From a virus, in IMG/VR virus record IMGVR_UViG_3300044695_002323, positions 1 through 29,584 of that record: a stretch of DNA of 29,584 bases. One strand, given 5' to 3'. Shown here in pieces: positions 17,442 to 28,205 of this stretch. Position numbers and translations under genes: made by a program. The notes below the pieces were generated by a model that did not search any database, had not been told where the DNA came from, and was given only the letters and a program-made list of their open reading frames with translations. The number at the start of each line of letters is the position of its first letter. Position 1 is the first letter of the stretch.

Positions 17442-17678
17442 TTATTTGATTGTGTGATGCATTTCGATGCCGTTTTTTTTCAAAAGCATCAGCCATCCAT
17501 AGCAGCGTTTTAGGTATGCCTTGCGCACGAATGAGCCATTCGGTGAGTGTTTCAAGTGCGCTGCGTAGCTTCGATGCGTTCGCGTGGTGCTGTGGTATGT
17601 TACGCATCCATCGGTTATCGTTGCCTCATTCGGTTCGTAGTTATTCATGCGCTCGATTAGTTGCTCTTCGATTGTCAT
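17442..17678 (-). CDS. Small unknown protein with in-frame A AAA AAC heptamer
   Basis: Starts MTIEEQLIERMNNYEPNEAT, overlaps the helicase stop as TAATG, 78 residues. The C-terminal part is basic (VRKAYLKRCYGW). Codons 67-69 read AAA AAA AAC, the heptamer A AAA AAC at 17478-17472 being among the most slippery known in bacteria. A -1 shift there would join it to the following regulator frame, giving about 161 residues. Function unknown. Confidence 0.65.
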   Translation of the reverse strand: MTIEEQLIERMNNYEPNEATITDGCVTYHSTTRTHRSYAAHLKHSPNGSFVRKAYLKRCYGWLMLLKKNGIEMHHTIK

Positions 17679-19084
17679 TAGAAAGGACTTATATCAAAAC
17701 TTTCATTAGGCTGCATTGCTTTCGGCTCGACCTCAATTGGAAGGTAGGTGCTGCCACCACTCGAGCCGGTATCGTGAAAGCTCGTAAGCGTGCTGTTATG
17801 CTTAAAGCGTACCTCACCCGTTGAACCTTGCCGATGCTTCTCGAATAGATAAAACACATCGGAGCTATAAGGGTTGCCAGCTTCATCGTTTAATCCGTAG
17901 TATTCAGGTCGATAGACGAACATAACCGTGTCGGCATCCTGTTCGATGCTTCCAGATTCGCGAAGGTCTGAGAGTATCGGTCGCTTATCGGCACGTTGCT
18001 CGACTTGTCTGCTTAACTGGGCAAGTGCGATAATCGGTATATTAAGTTCCTTTTGCGCGGCTTTCAACGTGCGGCTTATCTCTGCAACCTCAGCCTCTCG
18101 ATTACCGCCTCTGAAGCCCTCTATCGTCATAAGCTGAAGATAGTCAATGATTGCCCATTTGCAATTGTTCTTACGTGACTCCCGCCGCATTATGCGTATT
18201 GCCTCATGCACACCGCATCGCGGCTTATCGTAAATTGTGATGGGTAGCTTCTCAACTAATCCGATCGTGGTTTCGAATGCGTGTAGTTCGGGCTGTGATA
18301 GGTTCCCATCGCGCAGGCGTGCGCTATTAATCGAATCGTTTGCATGCTGAAGTATGAGCCGCTGGCAGAGCTGGCTTTGATTCATCTCGAGGTTGAAGTA
18401 TATGCCCGCCTCGTTGAACTGGCAGGCGTGGTACAATGCGAGGGCAGTCTTACCCATTGATGGTCTGCCTGCTAAGATTATAAGCTCGGGATGAAAGCCT
18501 CCGGTGAATCGGTTAAGTGCTGCGATGCCGGTATTCAATCCGCTTGTCTTACCGCTTTGGTGCAATGCGGCGCGGCGGTAGTATGCTTGCCGCTCTTCGT
18601 GGGTGAGCTGAAGTGTTGTAATGATGTTATCGGTAGGGCTGCCATTCTCGATTAGGGTATTGAGGCGCTTAATGATGTTTACGGCTGTTTCACCGCCGCT
18701 CTTTAGCTTACCTAATCCGAGTGCCTCTTCGGTTAGGATGTGGTTTATATTGCGCTTGATGTGTTCATCTTTGAGAATACTGATGTACTCATTGATCGGC
18801 TCTGAGTAACTAAGCTCATTGCCCCACTGGGTAACGCTAGCAATCTCATTAGCCGTGAGTGTTTTTTCGGTCAATGCGTATTTACCGAAGGTAACGAATG
18901 TCGGCTGCTTGCCGTCCTTCATTATCGCGTTTATGACCTTAAAGGCTTTGAGGGCTGTATCGTCTGAGAAGTGTTCATCGATAAGCTGCGGCGCGATTTC
19001 CTTATAGTTCTCATCGCCGTTAAGGCAAAGAAACATTAAAGCCTGTTCGATTTTAGGCACGTAGTGATTTGGTATTGATTTCAT
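17678..19084 (-). CDS. dnaB: DnaB-family replicative helicase
   Basis: A 468-residue hexameric helicase that unwinds DNA at the phage fork. The RecA-like C-terminal half has Walker A GRPSMGKT at 206-213, a FNLEMNQSQLCQRL segment, a Walker B region AIIDYLQL near 312-319 and the IIALAQLSRQVEQR and DLRESGSIEQDAD motifs characteristic of DnaB. The N-terminal domain (about 1-110) is typical in form but divergent. It lies just after the initiator-like gene with a gap of 18 bases, the usual initiator-helicase pair of phage replication modules. The start MKSIPNHYVPKIEQALMF matches the beginning of the family's N-terminal domain. Confidence 0.92.
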   Translation of the reverse strand: MKSIPNHYVPKIEQALMFLCLNGDENYKEIAPQLIDEHFSDDTALKAFKVINAIMKDGKQPTFVTFGKYALTEKTLTANEIASVTQWGNELSYSEPINEYISILKDEHIKRNINHILTEEALGLGKLKSGGETAVNIIKRLNTLIENGSPTDNIITTLQLTHEERQAYYRRAALHQSGKTSGLNTGIAALNRFTGGFHPELIILAGRPSMGKTALALYHACQFNEAGIYFNLEMNQSQLCQRLILQHANDSINSARLRDGNLSQPELHAFETTIGLVEKLPITIYDKPRCGVHEAIRIMRRESRKNNCKWAIIDYLQLMTIEGFRGGNREAEVAEISRTLKAAQKELNIPIIALAQLSRQVEQRADKRPILSDLRESGSIEQDADTVMFVYRPEYYGLNDEAGNPYSSDVFYLFEKHRQGSTGEVRFKHNSTLTSFHDTGSSGGSTYLPIEVEPKAMQPNESFDISPF

Positions 19085-19102: not shown

Positions 19103-19681
19103 TTATTCCATCTTAACGCCCATCGAGGCGCGTGTCTTTGTTGGTGCTGCGTTTGCTGGCTGTTTATCCTTATCGCGTTTATTCCAAGTAACCAACCTGC
19201 GCCCAGTATCCCAAGCATCCTGAGAGGTTAAGCGTATCCTACCATTCGCAAGCGGCTCAGTCCAATAGTTAAAGAAAGCATTTAGGAGTTCCTTAGGATA
19301 TCTATCCTTGTATGCCGTCATTGATTGAATCAAATCTTGCTCGCTCCACCTCTTAAAGCTATCTTTATTTTTATCCTTATCCTTATCCTTATCCTTATAG
19401 GCTTCCGTTTCGCTTTCAATTCGCTTCGGTTTCGCTTCCGATTCGCTTCCTATTCGCTTCGATTTCGGTTTGCTTCCGTTTATGTAGTTAGTGTTGCCCT
19501 TTGTTAACACAGGCTCAAAAGCAATGAATAATGCCTTCGCGAGTCCGGTTAATTCAGACTGTTTGAAATCGAGCGAATAAAGAAAAATTGCATCGTATAA
19601 CTCAAGCCTTGCGGCTTCAGGTAGCTCTTGCATTGCCTCATACATTGATCGGTAAAATATGCAAGTATCTCGCTTATCCAT
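19103..19681 (-). CDS. Replication initiator-like protein (DUF6291 type)
   Basis: A 192-residue protein starting MDKRDTCIFYRSMYEAMQEL; this conserved beginning supports the start. Residues 1-75 resemble the N-terminal domain of small phage replication proteins (from memory DUF6291). Residues 70-110 are charged linker containing 11-residue repeats (KRIGSESEAKP, KRIESETEAYK) and an alternating KD run, and the C-terminal part (LIQSMTAYKDRYPKELLNAF) is a helical domain with conserved W and R. It lies upstream of the DnaB gene. The role of loading helicase at the origin is inferred from this pairing and the iterons inside the gene. It is preceded by a structured RNA with a terminator ending three bases before the ATG. 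Confidence 0.75.
   Translation of the reverse strand: MDKRDTCIFYRSMYEAMQELPEAARLELYDAIFLYSLDFKQSELTGLAKALFIAFEPVLTKGNTNYINGSKPKSKRIGSESEAKPKRIESETEAYKDKDKDKDKNKDSFKRWSEQDLIQSMTAYKDRYPKELLNAFFNYWTEPLANGRIRLTSQDAWDTGRRLVTWNKRDKDKQPANAAPTKTRASMGVKME
19363..19398. repeat. AT-rich hexamer repeat beside the iterons
   Basis: Plus-strand 19373-19396 is four perfect copies of ATCCTT, preceded by ATCTTTATTTTT-like sequence. It encodes the alternating KD run. Next to the iterons it resembles the easily melted region of a phage origin. Confidence 0.6.
19408..19462. repeat. Five tandem 11-bp iterons, candidate replication origin
   Basis: Plus-strand units: TTTCGCTTTCA (19408), ATTCGCTTCGG (19419), TTTCGCTTCCG (19430), ATTCGCTTCCT (19441), ATTCGCTTCGA (19452), consensus WTTCGCTTYNN with exact 11-base phasing. 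Degenerate partial copies lie on both sides. Because 11 is not a multiple of three, the units are read in all three codon phases, which points to selection on the DNA. Iterons inside an initiator gene next to an AT-rich tract copy the layout of the lambda origin in gene O. Confidence 0.75.
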
Positions 19682-19820: not shown

Positions 19821-20078
19821 TCAATACTCCTTGCAGAATACGCGGGTATCGGTTGTGTACTTTTTGCCGTTAACGATTACAGTTGTGCTGGTTGTCATCT
19901 GCTTAACGTATTGCTTATTCTCGCGCCGAGTCATGCCGCATTGTTCAATGATAACCGGCGGCTGTGATTGCATCTGCCCGTATTGGTTAGTGCTGCTCTG
20001 CATTATTCGACATTCAAAGCATCGCTCGCAGCTGGTGAATAACATCGCAGCGGCTAATATTGTGTAAATTGTTTTCAT
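19821..20078 (-). CDS. Small predicted lipoprotein
   Basis: An 85-residue protein starting MKTIYTILAAAMLFTSC. A basic N-terminus, hydrophobic core and LFTSC lipobox with Cys17 form a type II signal peptide. The mature part starts CERCFEC and has more cysteines, a glutamine-rich stretch and a beta-rich end (TVIVNGKKYTTDTRV). It should be lipid-anchored on the cell envelope. Phage lipoproteins such as those of T5 (Llp) can block the receptor and stop superinfection; a like role is inference. It lies between the helicase-methyltransferase gene and the structured RNA. Confidence 0.75.
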   Translation of the reverse strand: MKTIYTILAAAMLFTSCERCFECRIMQSSTNQYGQMQSQPPVIIEQCGMTRRENKQYVKQMTTSTTVIVNGKKYTTDTRVFCKEY

Positions 20079-20097
20079 GGTTTTATTTGTTTTATTA

Positions 20098-22287
20098 TTA
20101 AAATAGACTATATTGAGATTTGGAGCCTAAAGCTATTTTTACATTTGCTTTTGCTAGATCATAGTAACTTTCTTTAAGCTCAAACCCTACTGCCTTTCTA
20201 TCCATTTTTACTGCTTGATAAACTTCGCTACCTATGCCCATAAACGGAGTAAATACAATATCATTTTTATTTGAATAAAGCAAAATCAATCTTTCAATTG
20301 TATCAAGTTGTAGAGGGCATATATGTTTTTCATCATTCTCTTCTCTTCCATTTCTAAATCCTTGCAAAGTATTTCCATAATCTATATCCATCCATACTGG
20401 CGATGCTATCTTTTGCCATAAATCTACACTCATATCAGTATTTTTTACAGGATTAGTTCTCTCGCCATCTTTTCTAAAAATCATTACATAATCAGGTATG
20501 CCAACTCGACTCATTGTACTGTCTTTTTTAACTTGTTTATGAAGTAATCCCAGTGCCTTAGTTCTTTGCATTTCAATTACAGGGTCTTTCCATATTGTAA
20601 CTCTACTAGCATAAATAAACCCAGCATCTTCAAATGCCTTTAGAATCATTCCGCTAAAATCTCGAAGTCCTATAAATCCTTCTTTGCCTTTCTGTATCGG
20701 CAAATCCATGCAATGAATTGCTACATTTCTTCCTTGCATCATTATTCGATATAATTCTTTTATCAGAAAACTAAACTGAGTTAAAAACTCTTTATAATCT
20801 TTTGAATTTCCCATATCCTCTAAATGGCTAGAATATGTGTAAAGCTCTGCGAATGGCGGAGAAAATACAGAAAGTCCAACGCTCTCGCTTTCTACTTCAG
20901 TAATCAACTGAATGCAATCGCCTCGCTTTATATGATACCATTCATTTTTTTCTTCTGTTATATTAAAATTTGCAGTAGTCATTTTTTTACCTTGTAGATT
21001 AGCATTTATAGCTTGGCTCATTTCGTCTTGCATGATTTCAAATTGTTTTTGTTTTTGATTGATTGCTTCGTTTACATTGCTCATGGTGTCAGTTGTTATT
21101 AGATAAATGTTCACTTCGTTCTTTTGACCAAATCGATAGCTTCTTCGTATTGCCTGATACAATCCCTCAAATGAAAAATCTAAACTTGCAAATATCTGAT
21201 TTCTGCAATTTTGATAATTCATCCCGAAGCTTGCTATTTTTGTCTTTGTAATAAGTATTCTAAATTCATTATTTGCAAATCCGAGCAAAGTTTTCTCTTT
21301 CCATTCATTTGAATCGCTTCCTTTTACTTCTTTTGCTTCAGGAATTAGTTTTTTTAACATTTCCCCTTCCTCATTCTGTTTAATCCAAATAATAAAATTT
21401 TCATCGGGCTTTGAATTTATTATTTTAACAACCTCATCAAGGCGCTCAAACTTTGTTAATCTTAATTCTTGATTAAAATTAGTTGCAGATATTATAGCGT
21501 CATTGAATAGGCTGCCATTATCTCTTTTGGGTGTTATAATTTGCTTTTCAAGTAAATTTAGCTTAGGTAAATTATATCCATCCATTTGAAATCCGATATC
21601 ATGCGGCTTATTAAGCATAATTGCCCAACTACCTATAAATTGATAAAATAGCTTTATAGCGTGTCCTTTTAATCGCCATTTTGCTGTTTCGCCTCCATCA
21701 TGAACAAAATACATTGCAAGCATTTCATTTCGGCTCATAACATCTAAAAATTCAGAATGATTACCAAGCTCCATCGGGTCGTTTGGTGATGGGGTAGCAG
21801 TGCATGCAAGCTTATAAGGTGTTTTAGAAAATAAATCTAAAATCAGCTTTTTGGTTGCGCCCTCAAAATTTTTTAATATAGAACTTTCATCTAAAACAAC
21901 TCCACTAAATATAGAACAATCAATATTTTCAAGTTGCTCATAATTTGTAATTTGAATTGGATAATTACTGCCATCATATTTAATTGCATTTATATTAAAT
22001 TTTGCAGCCTCCTTTATAGTTTGTCCGGCAACTGCTAAAGGAGCAAGAATCAATACTGGCTTATCAGTTTTTTTATTTACTTGATTTGCCCATTCTAATT
22101 GCATTAATGTTTTACCTAATCCGCAATCAGCAAAAATCGCATACTTTCCAGCATTTAACGCTCTTTTAACTATGAACTTTTGGAAATCAAACATTTGATT
22201 GTTTAATTCGGTTTCTAGAATATCAAAACCGCTTTTTGTGTGTGTCTTTTGTTTCTGCTCTAGAAACTTTAAATAGTCTGTTTTCAT
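20098..22287 (-). CDS. SF2 helicase fused to beta-type DNA methyltransferase
   Basis: A 729-residue fusion. Residues about 30-400 form an SNF2-like helicase: Walker A DCGLGKT (54-60), LDES (132-135) in place of DEAH, TATP (163-166) and QAIRRSYRFGQ (378-388) as motif VI. Residues about 445-729 form a methyltransferase with motif IV SPPF (476-479) before the SAM-binding FMGIGS (682-687), the beta order. SPPF occurs in N4-cytosine enzymes such as PvuII; adenine is not excluded. No nuclease domain is seen. Its DNA is strikingly AT-rich (one sampled line is 18 G+C in 60) against neighbours near half, so recent transfer is likely. Protection from restriction, as with P1 DarB, is a possible role. 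Confidence 0.85.
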   Translation of the reverse strand: MKTDYLKFLEQKQKTHTKSGFDILETELNNQMFDFQKFIVKRALNAGKYAIFADCGLGKTLMQLEWANQVNKKTDKPVLILAPLAVAGQTIKEAAKFNINAIKYDGSNYPIQITNYEQLENIDCSIFSGVVLDESSILKNFEGATKKLILDLFSKTPYKLACTATPSPNDPMELGNHSEFLDVMSRNEMLAMYFVHDGGETAKWRLKGHAIKLFYQFIGSWAIMLNKPHDIGFQMDGYNLPKLNLLEKQIITPKRDNGSLFNDAIISATNFNQELRLTKFERLDEVVKIINSKPDENFIIWIKQNEEGEMLKKLIPEAKEVKGSDSNEWKEKTLLGFANNEFRILITKTKIASFGMNYQNCRNQIFASLDFSFEGLYQAIRRSYRFGQKNEVNIYLITTDTMSNVNEAINQKQKQFEIMQDEMSQAINANLQGKKMTTANFNITEEKNEWYHIKRGDCIQLITEVESESVGLSVFSPPFAELYTYSSHLEDMGNSKDYKEFLTQFSFLIKELYRIMMQGRNVAIHCMDLPIQKGKEGFIGLRDFSGMILKAFEDAGFIYASRVTIWKDPVIEMQRTKALGLLHKQVKKDSTMSRVGIPDYVMIFRKDGERTNPVKNTDMSVDLWQKIASPVWMDIDYGNTLQGFRNGREENDEKHICPLQLDTIERLILLYSNKNDIVFTPFMGIGSEVYQAVKMDRKAVGFELKESYYDLAKANVKIALGSKSQYSLF

Positions 22288-22307
22288 GTGTTTTTGTGTT
22301 TAGTTGT

Positions 22308-22691
22308 TTATCGTAAGTACTCTTCAATTATTTCAATGCATTCCATTAACCCAATGCCGAACACGGCCTTATAGCCTACCATGTTGAGGTGTTTCAGCAT
22401 TGCATGTTGCTCTTCGAGGTGCTGATCAGCGTATAGCGTACCATCTTTTCGTTGCGTTCGTTCGCCGTCCTTTTTGATTTCGATGTATAGCCCTGCATAA
22501 CCGTTCGATGGCTGGCAGATGAATAGGTCAGGGTAGCCGCGATGGGGGTTGAGCCCCTTGTGCGATTTAGCTTGCCCGATGCTCATCTTAACTCCAGCGC
22601 TGAAGTCGAAGCGCCATAATACTCTCGGGTGCTTTAGCTTCATAAACTTCGCGATTGCAAAGTATATATCTGATTCTTTAGCCTTTCTCAT
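22308..22691 (-). CDS. VRR-NUC-type nuclease
   Basis: A 127-residue protein of the small, single-domain PD-(D/E)xK nuclease class. GYPDLFI at 52-58 and YIEIKKDG at 69-76 give the catalytic D55, E71 and K73, with Q95 in a following helix, as in VRR-NUC proteins; these often cut branched or structured DNA. An N-terminal basic segment (MKLKHPRVLWRFDFSAG) precedes the core. It sits between the exonuclease genes and the helicase-methyltransferase gene, pointing to recombination or replication-intermediate processing. It overlaps the preceding gene by four bases. Confidence 0.8.
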   Translation of the reverse strand: MRKAKESDIYFAIAKFMKLKHPRVLWRFDFSAGVKMSIGQAKSHKGLNPHRGYPDLFICQPSNGYAGLYIEIKKDGERTQRKDGTLYADQHLEEQHAMLKHLNMVGYKAVFGIGLMECIEIIEEYLR

Positions 22692-22924
22692 CGCGAATAA
22701 ACTTTATCAATCATTCGTACCAGCTCGACCTTGTTAAGCCGTTCAGCATCATCGTAGAGGTCAATAACGATGCAGCGATTGTTCTCATAATCGTTGTAGA
22801 ACTTCCGGTATTTATAGTTCGATTCATAATAATCGAAACCGCAAGCCATGAGATACGATGCCACATTCTTATAGTTGTGATCGATGAACTCGCTCAGGTT
22901 GCCTAAGTCGGGTGTCGCGCTCAT
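22688..22924 (-). CDS. Small unknown protein, 78 residues
   Basis: Starts MSATPDLGNLSEFIDHNYKN and is rich in tyrosine, asparagine and aspartate (ESNYKYRKFYNDYENN). It overlaps the exonuclease gene and the nuclease gene by four bases each, so all three are probably translated together. No family recognised. Confidence 0.65.
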   Translation of the reverse strand: MSATPDLGNLSEFIDHNYKNVASYLMACGFDYYESNYKYRKFYNDYENNRCIVIDLYDDAERLNKVELVRMIDKVYSR

Positions 22925-23493
22925 AATTGTTCGAAGTATTTAGAGATTAACTGCTTCGCGTTCTCAATCTCGAGCGCATTGTGCCGGTATAGGTAGAGGT
23001 CGCTGAACTTACCAGACTGCTTCACCTTTGGCGGTATGCCGATGTAGTAAAAGTTCGCAGGGTTGAAGCCCATTAGCATCGAATACCATACCGCCTGAAC
23101 GTGGTTGAGGTGCCGTATCATATCCTCGGCGAATGCCTGCATCGTTGGAGCGCTTGTGGTCTTAACATCGGCAATGATGCCCTCGCTTATCCAGCACAAG
23201 TCCATCATTCCCTTCGCCTCGCGTTCAATGCCGTTTACCTCAATGCTTCCGAGCTTTATGTATTCGTGCTCCGATTCATTAAACAATCGCGCAAGCATCG
23301 GCAATTCGTTAATCGCTGTGTATACATTCTGAACCATTGGCGGCATCTGAATGAATGGCTGCTCCAGTAGGTCAAAGTGAAACGCAGCACCGGCATCGAG
23401 CGCGGCTTGTGCATAGCTTATATCGCCTGTATAGTGGCGTTTAATCCTACTCGCGCTCGTTGCTGGGTGTTTAATATATTCTTCGCGTGTCAT
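22921..23493 (-). CDS. RecB-type PD-(D/E)xK exonuclease
   Basis: A 190-residue nuclease. H39 in the early GAAFHFD segment, an acidic residue near E89-E92, D98 in KGMMDLCW, the DVKTT core (D109, K111) and Q133 in a helix make the usual RecB/lambda-exonuclease-like site. Phage enzymes of this size resect DNA ends for recombination. Its neighbours are a single-strand DNA-binding-like protein upstream and a VRR-NUC nuclease downstream, as in phage recombination modules. An annealing partner of RecT type is not evident, so it may be one of the unknown genes nearby or lacking. Confidence 0.8.
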   Translation of the reverse strand: MTREEYIKHPATSASRIKRHYTGDISYAQAALDAGAAFHFDLLEQPFIQMPPMVQNVYTAINELPMLARLFNESEHEYIKLGSIEVNGIEREAKGMMDLCWISEGIIADVKTTSAPTMQAFAEDMIRHLNHVQAVWYSMLMGFNPANFYYIGIPPKVKQSGKFSDLYLYRHNALEIENAKQLISKYFEQL

Positions 23494-25030: not shown

Positions 25031-25696
25031 TTAATCCCAAGGTAAGTCATTCGCCGCTTTCTGCCCAAAGATATCGTCAATGTCCGGCAGCTCTTCAATG
25101 TTTTGCGGCGGTTTATTGAACGCTGACTTCTGCTCGTTGCGGCTCATTGCAATGTATTCATCCGATTCTTTAATCTTATCCTGAATGAACTCGGGCAGCT
25201 TAGAGAATACTTCCTGATCGTGCGCGGTTGGCGTGTAGGTAAATGCTTCGTTAATTGCTGCCGGGCATTCGTAGCCCTTCATCAGCGGCGCGAAGCTGAT
25301 AATGTTTGCGTAGGTGTTCTCGCCTTTCGTTACGTGAGCAATGTTAACCATTCCAGTTTTACCGAGCATCTTGAATATGTCGAGCTTTGCTGCCTCGGCA
25401 TCGCTTAACTTTTTACCAAGCCACGCCGAAAGGTCGCGGCGTAGTAATGCTTTCTCATTCATAGAGAGCGTGTAAATGCTGCGCACGTAATACGGCTGCT
25501 TGCCTTTCGCTTCATCGAATACTGCCAGCTCGGTAGGTAGCTCAAATAGCAATTGTACTTTTCGCTTTTTACCGGGAAAGTTACCGCCCTGCTCAGTGGT
25601 TCCGAGGTCAATGATTTGGTAGCAGCGTGCAGGGTAGCTGCCTTCGGGTGCGATTTGACGATTCGATGAACCGCCAATGGGTGCTGTTAAAGCCAT
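25031..25696 (-). CDS. Predicted single-strand DNA-binding protein
   Basis: A 221-residue protein starting MALTAPIGGSSNRQIAPEGS. Beta-rich N-terminal two-thirds are compatible with an OB-type fold, and the C-terminus is acidic and ends DLPWD, the kind of tip that binds partner proteins in SSB. It is upstream of the coiled-coil and exonuclease genes, the usual place of such proteins in phage recombination modules. The call is from form and context, not from a clear signature, so a recombination-assisting protein of another family is possible. Flanking intergenic hairpins could raise or stabilise its mRNA. Confidence 0.6.
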   Translation of the reverse strand: MALTAPIGGSSNRQIAPEGSYPARCYQIIDLGTTEQGGNFPGKKRKVQLLFELPTELAVFDEAKGKQPYYVRSIYTLSMNEKALLRRDLSAWLGKKLSDAEAAKLDIFKMLGKTGMVNIAHVTKGENTYANIISFAPLMKGYECPAAINEAFTYTPTAHDQEVFSKLPEFIQDKIKESDEYIAMSRNEQKSAFNKPPQNIEELPDIDDIFGQKAANDLPWD

Positions 25697-27068: not shown

Positions 27069-27235
27069 AGGATTAGTTCGTTTAATCGTTTGAGGTACGT
27101 GCTCTTATCTCTGAGCTCGTTAAGCAATATATCGCCCGCCACCTTAATCGGCATCGACTTCTCGGCTATGTAAACTGCCAGCACCTTTACCAAGCGCTCA
27201 TCGCATTCGCAATCGGTGGCTGGTAGGTTGCTCAT
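27050..27235 (-). CDS. Small helical protein, 61 residues
   Basis: Starts MSNLPATDCECDERLVKVLA, with an early cysteine pair and helical remainder (ILLNELRDKSTYLKRLNELI). It overlaps the PAS-HisKA gene's end by four bases and the next gene by 19. No family recognised. Confidence 0.55.
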   Translation of the reverse strand: MSNLPATDCECDERLVKVLAVYIAEKSMPIKVAGDILLNELRDKSTYLKRLNELILCSKAT

Positions 27236-27798
27236 AATTGCCGCGTTGCTTTCTTTACCAATAGCCGAATCACATTGTCGAGCTTTTCAACGCTATCTTC
27301 GAGCATCTTCATCACGCCATCGCGTTCCTGATCGGTTGCCCACGTATGCTCGTTTATCATTTTCACCAAGCCGCCAATCGATGTCAATGGCTGACGAAGT
27401 TCGTGCGATAGGGTAAAGCGAAACTCTTCGAGTAGTATCTTTTGCCGTTCATATTCGTGGTTGCTGATGGAAGTAACATCGACCAATTGAATGCCGATGA
27501 AGTGCAGCATGTCAACAATGGCGTAAACATTCCACATATTGAAGCGCTCGGATGCAATCTTCTGTTTCGTCTTTGCGTATGCCCGAATCGGGTCGGGCGA
27601 TTTGCTTTGCGCCTTGCGAATGGCTGCAAGCAGTTCATCGCGGTCGCTGTCTTGCGCTGCAATGTCGAGTATGTTGCCGGGCTTTATGTGGCTTGAGTAT
27701 TCGCGGAATAGGTCATTCGTAGTGACGATGTTGCCATCCTTATCTGTAATCACATAGAAGAGGTCAATTGATGACTCAAGGATGTGCAGCGATGCCAT
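27232..27798 (-). CDS. PAS-HisKA protein lacking a kinase ATPase domain
   Basis: A frame open to 27861 exists, but ATG 27798 follows a promoter box and avoids the upstream gene, giving 188 residues starting MASLHILESSIDLFYVITDK. Residues about 5-110 look like a PAS sensor domain (FYVITDKDGNIVTTNDLF). Residues 126-146 form a HisKA H-box, FTLSHELRQPLTSIGGL, with phospho-acceptor candidate His132; helix two of the dimerisation domain follows (LEDSVEKLDNVIRLL). The protein ends there, without the N, D, F and G boxes of the ATP-binding domain, so it cannot phosphorylate itself. It could accept or divert phosphate from, or dimerise with, host kinases. Such a phage-encoded half-kinase is unusual. 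Confidence 0.75.
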   Translation of the reverse strand: MASLHILESSIDLFYVITDKDGNIVTTNDLFREYSSHIKPGNILDIAAQDSDRDELLAAIRKAQSKSPDPIRAYAKTKQKIASERFNMWNVYAIVDMLHFIGIQLVDVTSISNHEYERQKILLEEFRFTLSHELRQPLTSIGGLVKMINEHTWATDQERDGVMKMLEDSVEKLDNVIRLLVKKATRQL

Positions 27799-27802
27799 GC
27801 TG

Positions 27803-27835
27803 CAAAGATACGTTAAACCGAACGTAAATCCGCAA
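27803..27835 (-). promoter_or_regulatory. Promoter of the PAS-HisKA gene
   Basis: TATCTTTG at 27810-27803 with TTG at 27835-27833, a 22-base spacer. The box is only four bases before ATG 27798, which suggests a leaderless transcript. It lies inside the end of the upstream gene. Confidence 0.6.
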
Positions 27836-28205
27836 TTAATGAACGCCATGCAGGCATACATCCGAGCGCATACTTGATGGTAAGCAGCATCGTGAAGGTG
27901 AGCACAATTCCATTAGCAAGTATATCGTAATTCATAGGCGTTGGCATTTCCGGCTCGTTTCTTACAGCGTGAGTTTTCGGGATGTAATACGTGGCGGCTG
28001 GGTACAAAGATACATCACACGGCTGAATCGTGTCGAATGCTGTGAGCACTTTCGGCTTTGGCGGTTGCGCCATGACCGCCTGAAAGGATTCACGATTCGC
28101 CTGGGCGAATGAGGTGTCCACATCGGGCTGTTGCCACTGCATCTCATCGATGTTCACCTTATTATGGCGAACCACCTTTATTGTATCTCTTCTAATCTGT
28201 TGCAT
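27813..28205 (-). CDS. Membrane protein, 130 residues
   Basis: Starts MQQIRRDTIKVVRHNKVNID. The N-terminal two-thirds are soluble and proline-rich (VMAQPPKPKVLTAFD); a membrane segment follows near residues 96-115 (NGIVLTFTMLLTIKYALG). It overlaps the holin-like gene's end by 14 bases and ends beside the PAS-HisKA promoter. It could assist holin or lysis; no family recognised. Confidence 0.6.
   Translation of the reverse strand: MQQIRRDTIKVVRHNKVNIDEMQWQQPDVDTSFAQANRESFQAVMAQPPKPKVLTAFDTIQPCDVSLYPAATYYIPKTHAVRNEPEMPTPMNYDILANGIVLTFTMLLTIKYALGCMPAWRSLIADLRSV

Follow-up and report, generated by a model that had tools for sequence, protein, structure and literature searches.

Proteins that join a DNA helicase to a DNA methyltransferase are already known from hundreds of phages, where the two parts are encoded either by one fused gene or by adjacent genes. 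One homologue, gp60 of Mycobacterium phage Pacc40, already has a published description in which a helicase domain precedes a methylase domain (PMC11855218), and SWI2/SNF2 ATPases coupled to adenine methyltransferases are known in phages and plasmids (PMC5512222). Among the open-access papers searched we found no experimentally characterised member of this family, and no paper stating the role of the motor in phage helicase-methylases. A further phage polypeptide with both an SNF2-related ATPase and a DNA methyltransferase is DarB of phage P1, a virion protein of 2255 amino acids in which a gamma-class N6_Mtase domain (residues 145-290) is N-terminal and the SNF2-like domain starts at residue 849. 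The Dar system works exclusively in cis on DNA packaged in the virion, possibly by physical obstruction (PMC12707154). Type I and type III restriction-modification systems also pair SF2 motors with methyltransferases, the type III Mod being of the beta-class type (PMC5512222).

How does the gene studied here compare with these systems? It lies in a window of 29,584 nucleotides, the whole stretch of DNA that was analysed, which by its sequence is probably that of a Bacteroidota tailed phage. Among cellular sequences, the closest matches come from Chitinophagaceae MAG contigs (77-78%), the terminase scores highest with Flavobacterium phage 11b, and the gene leaders are A-rich and have no Shine-Dalgarno sequence; together these features point to a probable Bacteroidota host. 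The gene occupies positions 20098-22287 on the minus strand, which the preliminary description did not give, and encodes 729 amino acids in a single open frame (GC 32%). Residues 1-440 (20968-22287, minus strand) form the SNF2-type ATPase region, as judged from Pfam and an AlphaFold model, and residues 441-729 (20101-20967, minus strand) the methyltransferase region, which resembles TTHA0409. Pfam places SNF2-rel_dom at residues 55-176, Helicase_C at 281-387 and N6_N4_Mtase (PF01555, E 4.9e-20) at 472-713, the last with 72.9 bits against a curated cut-off of 26.7; the PHROG matches are to DNA helicase (16, 62) and DNA methyltransferase (67).

The elements expected of an SNF2-type SF2 ATPase are all present. 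On the minus strand, Walker A is DCGLGKT (residues 54-60, with GLGKT at 56-60; 22108-22128), Walker B is VLDESS (residues 131-136, with DESS at 133-136; 21880-21897), TATP stands at residues 163-166 for the TAT motif, and motif VI, QAIRRSYRFGQ (residues 378-388; 21124-21156), has the form QxxRRxxRxGQ. In the second half, methyltransferase motif IV, SPPF (residues 476-479; 20851-20862, minus strand), precedes motif I, PFMGIG (residues 681-686; 20230-20247, minus strand), and because of this order the domain belongs to the beta class of amino-methyltransferases, as its PF01555 score also indicates. The AlphaFold model has a mean pLDDT of 81. Its residues 24-427 match the ATPase cores of INO80 and ISW1 (INO80: Z 32.6, rmsd 3.3, about 373 residues), giving the SNF2 fold, and its methyltransferase part matches TTHA0409 (2zig) with a TM-score of 0.78 normalised to the target. 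The matches listed in the VIA-align structure search cover the helicase region alone and have no bearing on the methyltransferase part. The preliminary description had reported an SNF2-like helicase fused to a beta-type methyltransferase with all motifs in one frame, and had asked for structure prediction; domain matches, motif order and the predicted model all agree with it.

A tblastn search returned 422 phage records, 304 of which align over 80% or more of the query, and relatives also occur on a few plasmids. Homology to the known family (PHROG 16 and 67; Gorpy gp73, CaptainTrips gp64/65 and the FCV-1 group) spans both domains, and the gene follows the family order, helicase and then methyltransferase, whether fused or adjacent. 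Fused relatives with an SNF2 N-terminal part and a PF01555-type C-terminal part (coverage about 93-98%) include FCV-3, Gorpy gp73, Pacc40 gp60 and phi297. The protein of Flavobacterium phage FCV-3 (ASD51632.1) keeps SPPF and is 53.5% identical over 98% of the query. Split pairs, which differ from the window's gene in being two genes and not one, are adjacent, carry SPPF and have the same order in CaptainTrips (gp64/gp65, about 39% identity over 94% of the query), Gordonia phage GMA1 (Orf62/63), Dulem virus 39 and ct7QV12; in snusmum6-1, an endonuclease gene lies between the two halves. Among solved structures, the methyltransferase domain is most closely related to TTHA0409 (PDB 2zie/2zif/2zig), which has SPPY at motif IV and, unlike the window's protein, stands alone without a helicase. 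PADLOC matched only generic type II methyltransferases and, weakly, a ZorD motor, and gave no assignment to a defence system.

Gorpy gp73, which is annotated in this Arthrobacter phage as 'DNA helicase/methylase', Pseudomonas phage phi297 (YP_005098037.1) and Pacc40 belong to a sister clade with about 30% identity, in which S-[IV]-P-F replaces SPPF. Among the sister-clade loci (L084, L085, L088, L090, L093 and L119-L256), the motif reads TSIPF in 132 of 141 and TSVPF in 8 of 141. The second glycine of motif I is often absent in this clade, which comprises Pseudomonas, Mycobacterium, Arthrobacter and Flavobacterium phages, and the helicase motifs are mostly kept. The sister-clade methyltransferase is perhaps altered or non-catalytic; the conservation of S-[IV]-P-F implies that the clade is nevertheless probably functional.

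The likeness to DarB was the ground on which the preliminary description held that helicase-methyltransferase fusions can protect phage DNA. It could be taken to mean that the window's protein is likewise co-packaged in the virion and injected, protecting the incoming DNA in cis, since two like activities share one polypeptide and the ATPase of DarB is SNF2-related. However, the domain order is opposite to that of DarB, the methyltransferase belongs to PF01555 and not to N6_Mtase, and the protein has no long extra regions. The gene also lies among replication genes and not among head genes. Homology to DarB was considered and rejected: BLASTP matches the ATP-binding region only (E 0.022), with nothing significant beyond it. 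The arrangement typical of DarB and the polyvalent methylase-helicase dyads, a gamma-class adenine methyltransferase with an N-terminal LPD36 followed by an SF2 helicase, is absent from this protein. A DarB-like virion role is therefore very improbable. Because Dar acts in cis and may obstruct, DarB serves as an analogy and sets no precedent for protection by methylation, so this argument of the preliminary description falls away.

Is the gene likely to be active? Conservation was assessed in a set of 81 close relatives, which counts the window's own gene alongside 80 from IMG/VR that are 79-89% identical. All catalytic motifs are preserved throughout: DESS and the arginines of motif VI are kept in 81/81, and Walker A is invariant except for one conservative T60S substitution in a single sequence. 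Motif IV is SPPF in all 81 and in 44/44 wider relatives of both fused and split form. The preliminary description had named an inactive site among close homologues as evidence against itself; none was seen. The median dN/dS is 0.037 for pairs with dS between 0.1 and 1, which shows strong purifying selection on the protein. The whole methyltransferase, including the putative recognition region, is strongly conserved among phages of unrelated backbone.

The two domains are also inherited together. Across 41 sequences, the helicase and methyltransferase distances are correlated with r = 0.955, a value reached by none of 2000 shuffles, and in 96% of pairs the methyltransferase half is the better conserved. 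At least six switches between fused and split forms are required on a tree of 48 sequences, during which the helicase and the methyltransferase were never parted. This is strong evidence that the two act together.

The gene differs sharply in composition from its surroundings, as had been noted before. Its GC content is 0.321 and its GC3 0.23, compared with 0.472 +/- 0.037 and 0.542 +/- 0.067 in the 29 other genes (z of -4.1 and -4.6, respectively), and the abrupt change coincides with both gene ends. In 69 of 74 loci (L002-L082), including phages of widely differing GC, the GC3 of the helicase-methylase gene is below that of its neighbours. Low GC is thus both a family habit and a sign of transfer; with the best whole-gene IMG/VR relatives saturated at synonymous sites, it is weak proof of transfer when taken alone. 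Divergence from these relatives is too great for transfer to be seen directly; within the 70-75% nucleotide-identity class, 851 of 1100 pairs have no common flanking homologue. Sibling contigs were therefore needed, and they were retrieved by searching with the flanking genes.

Two of the sibling contigs carry the same gene on a different backbone. L274 contains residues 1-444 at 97.7% nucleotide identity, with a dS of 0.11 for the gene and 0.53-0.62 for the backbone, while L319 contains residues 452-729, with a dS of 0.11 against 0.60-0.69. Backbone divergence is about five times that of the gene in both contigs, from which it follows that the gene moved between backbones after these had diverged. 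Strong codon bias may depress the dS of the gene somewhat, but a five-fold drop by this route is implausible. The earlier claim of a transferred gene is upheld by these values and by the empty site in other siblings: the fused gene is an AT-rich cargo, exchanged recently, in a slot for DNA modification. The sharp break at both ends would also be expected if an AT-rich gene of another phage had been misjoined to the contig during assembly. Against such a chimera, the left junction recurs in L274 and the right junction in L319, from another metagenome and with diverged backbones; the frame is unbroken, as is the leader, leaving an assembly error with almost no likelihood.

No integrase and no terminal repeats were seen around the fused gene. 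A 30-bp direct repeat (D3) near both gene ends was considered as a transposon end and rejected, as it merely reflects how alike two genes are at their starts. Scans for promoters and terminators yielded no more hits than shuffled sequence did, and the Bacteroidota -7 motif TANNTTTG was not enriched (28 occurrences against 22 expected).

Comparison of the siblings defines the insertion site. Slot A is the interval in the replication operon from a VRR-NUC-type nuclease gene to the next backbone gene, on the side of the nuclease gene that faces DnaB; slot B is on its other side. In the window, all of the following features being on the minus strand, the left edge of slot A is a 20-bp A-rich leader (22288-22307), and the right edge (20079-20097) lies ahead of a small lipoprotein-like gene (19821-20078). 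Next come backbone genes for a DUF6291 protein (19103-19681; Pfam) and a DnaB-type replicative helicase (17678-19084; Pfam and PHROG). In L271/L300, whose VRR-NUC and DnaB are 98% and 99% identical to those of the window, slot A is empty and only 12 bp separate the VRR-NUC stop codon from the start of the lipoprotein-like gene. Of the 26 resolved siblings whose VRR-NUC shows 85% identity or more, 22 have no ORF of 70 or more amino acids in slot A, so the benefit of a cargo is conditional.

What occupies the slot in the other siblings? L262 has a split pair, an SNF2 helicase and an N6_N4 methyltransferase with SPPF, about 40% identical to the fused gene; such pairs also fill slot A in L334 and in the more distant siblings L289 and L294. 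The 20-bp leader before the start codon is identical in the fused gene and this diverged L262 pair, as would fit cargoes being swapped at one fixed point. L276 carries a pair comprising a ParB-like and a PAPS-reductase/DUF3440 protein (L276:7405-9733; GC 0.32 against 0.44 in the flank), and L263 and L282 a 248-aa protein that matches GmrSD_N weakly. In the distant siblings L286 (7345-9536), L288, L291 and L299, slot A holds a 466-aa N6_N4-methyltransferase-like protein and a 264-aa ORF, possibly a DNA hypermodification pair; by eye, the former has a GNAT-like N-terminus, and the latter contains cysteines. The slot A cargoes are AT-rich relative to their own backbones (GC 0.32-0.38). The occupied examples, few as they are, suggest that slot A favours DNA-modifying genes.

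Slot B is empty in the window. In 12 contigs, it contains proteins clustering with C5-cytosine methyltransferase (PF00145, E 5e-42 for L262). The slot B protein of L271 (L271:6331-7011; 227 aa) has an FPPCT stretch and no Pfam match, and may be a divergent cytosine methyltransferase. A locus at which sibling phages show either an empty slot or one of several cargoes, the fused gene and the split pair among them, is new here.

The gene between the two slots bears on another claim. The preliminary description stated that no nuclease is present; this holds inside the ORF, in which Pfam finds no nuclease domain, but not for its surroundings. A gene for a VRR-NUC-type PD-(D/E)XK nuclease of 127 aa (22308-22691, minus strand; phrog_5702/824; PDB 4qbl, E 3.8e-5, with a sub-threshold match to Pfam VRR_NUC) ends 20 bp upstream of the fused gene and runs in the same direction. 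Together with the motor-methyltransferase pairing of type I and III systems, this neighbour raises the idea of a phage-borne restriction-modification system, in which the fused protein would supply motor and methylation and VRR-NUC would cleave host or competitor DNA. However, VRR-NUC is 98-99% identical in siblings with slot A empty, and L257 has both slots unfilled, so the nuclease needs no cognate methylase and is part of the backbone rather than a restriction partner. A match to phrog_5702 is found in just 6 of the 89 upstream ORFs of fused-gene relatives, the window included. The protein also departs from type III Mod/Res in having an SNF2-like motor on one polypeptide with the methyltransferase, and no nuclease domain. 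The arrangement of a type I or III system is missing here, and a restriction-modification function is very improbable.

The remaining neighbours are those of a replication region. Upstream on the minus strand are a 78-aa ORF overlapping the VRR-NUC gene (22688-22924), a PD-(D/E)XK protein of 190 aa that is DUF3799 / exonuclease VIII-like (22921-23493; Pfam and PHROG) and a phage replication initiation protein of the NGO0469 family (25031-25696; NCBIfam, E 1.5e-51). A small phage ORF at 27232-27861 has a weak match to HisKA, the histidine kinase dimerisation domain (E 3.9e-7). With DnaB, VRR-NUC, the exonuclease-like protein and the initiator near the gene in the window, and RecA, SSB, the beta clamp, DnaB and primase-helicase near its relatives, could the protein be a replication or recombination factor? 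The SNF2 ATPase would then remodel intermediates, and the methyltransferase would mark nascent or parental DNA, for strand discrimination or origin control and not for restriction evasion; conservation of the family in many phage lineages is in keeping with this idea. Against it, the gene is absent from near-identical siblings (DnaB 98-99%), which shows that it is dispensable for replication, and the other slot A cargoes are mostly DNA-modifying genes. We regard a replication role as unlikely, though a more serious candidate than the alternatives discussed above.

The explanation that we favour, and consider fairly likely, is that the fused gene is a mobile self-modification gene: its product would mark phage DNA, probably as m4C, so as to escape restriction, and methylation would be coupled to the motor. 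It is an AT-rich accessory gene that was recently recombined into the interchangeable modification slot between VRR-NUC and DnaB, and it encodes an SNF2-type ATPase joined to a beta-class DNA methyltransferase in one polypeptide. The motor would bind or translocate on double-stranded phage DNA, or remodel it; the C-terminal domain would methylate that DNA, probably at cytosine N4; and the modified progeny genomes would resist host restriction. The reported exchange of methyltransferases among Bacteroides phages (PMC10333322) and in actinophages (PMC9957025) fits such a gene. As to the product, SPPF is a motif IV of the S-P-P-(Y/F) type and is suggestive of N4-cytosine methylation, no more. Among the named PDB and NCBIfam neighbours of the C-terminal part, adenine enzymes predominate, which keeps m6A among the possible products.

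Some observations weigh against the self-modification reading, among them the lack of any cargo in slot A of most siblings. Strong conservation of the methyltransferase is unlike the diversification of sites expected in an arms race; swapping of whole modules could substitute for it, in which case specificity would be changed by replacing the module and not by evolution of this methyltransferase. In addition, simple methylation leaves the ATPase unexplained. To our knowledge, stand-alone phage methyltransferases need no ATPase. A bolder and rather doubtful proposal is that the SNF2 translocase drives the beta-class methyltransferase along phage DNA, perhaps while it is replicating; such proteins would form a distinct class of modification enzyme, a self-contained unit moving among plug-in slots like that next to VRR-NUC, with the S-[IV]-P-F clade altered or non-catalytic.

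Phage helicase-methylase proteins are very common, and the fused gene is a real, intact and recently exchanged member of this known family; of the two discoveries, the slot is the more useful. Since near-identical phages carry either nothing or other DNA-modifying genes at this position, the context suggests that the cargo disguises phage DNA from bacterial defences. The locus amounts to a natural experiment: in some siblings the slot is empty, and in others it is filled by the fused gene, by helicase and methyltransferase as separate genes or by a different modification gene. The slot is also a marker by which unknown phage DNA-modification genes might be found. If methylation proves to be ATPase-dependent, the family would represent a mechanism of motor-coupled modification outside restriction enzymes.
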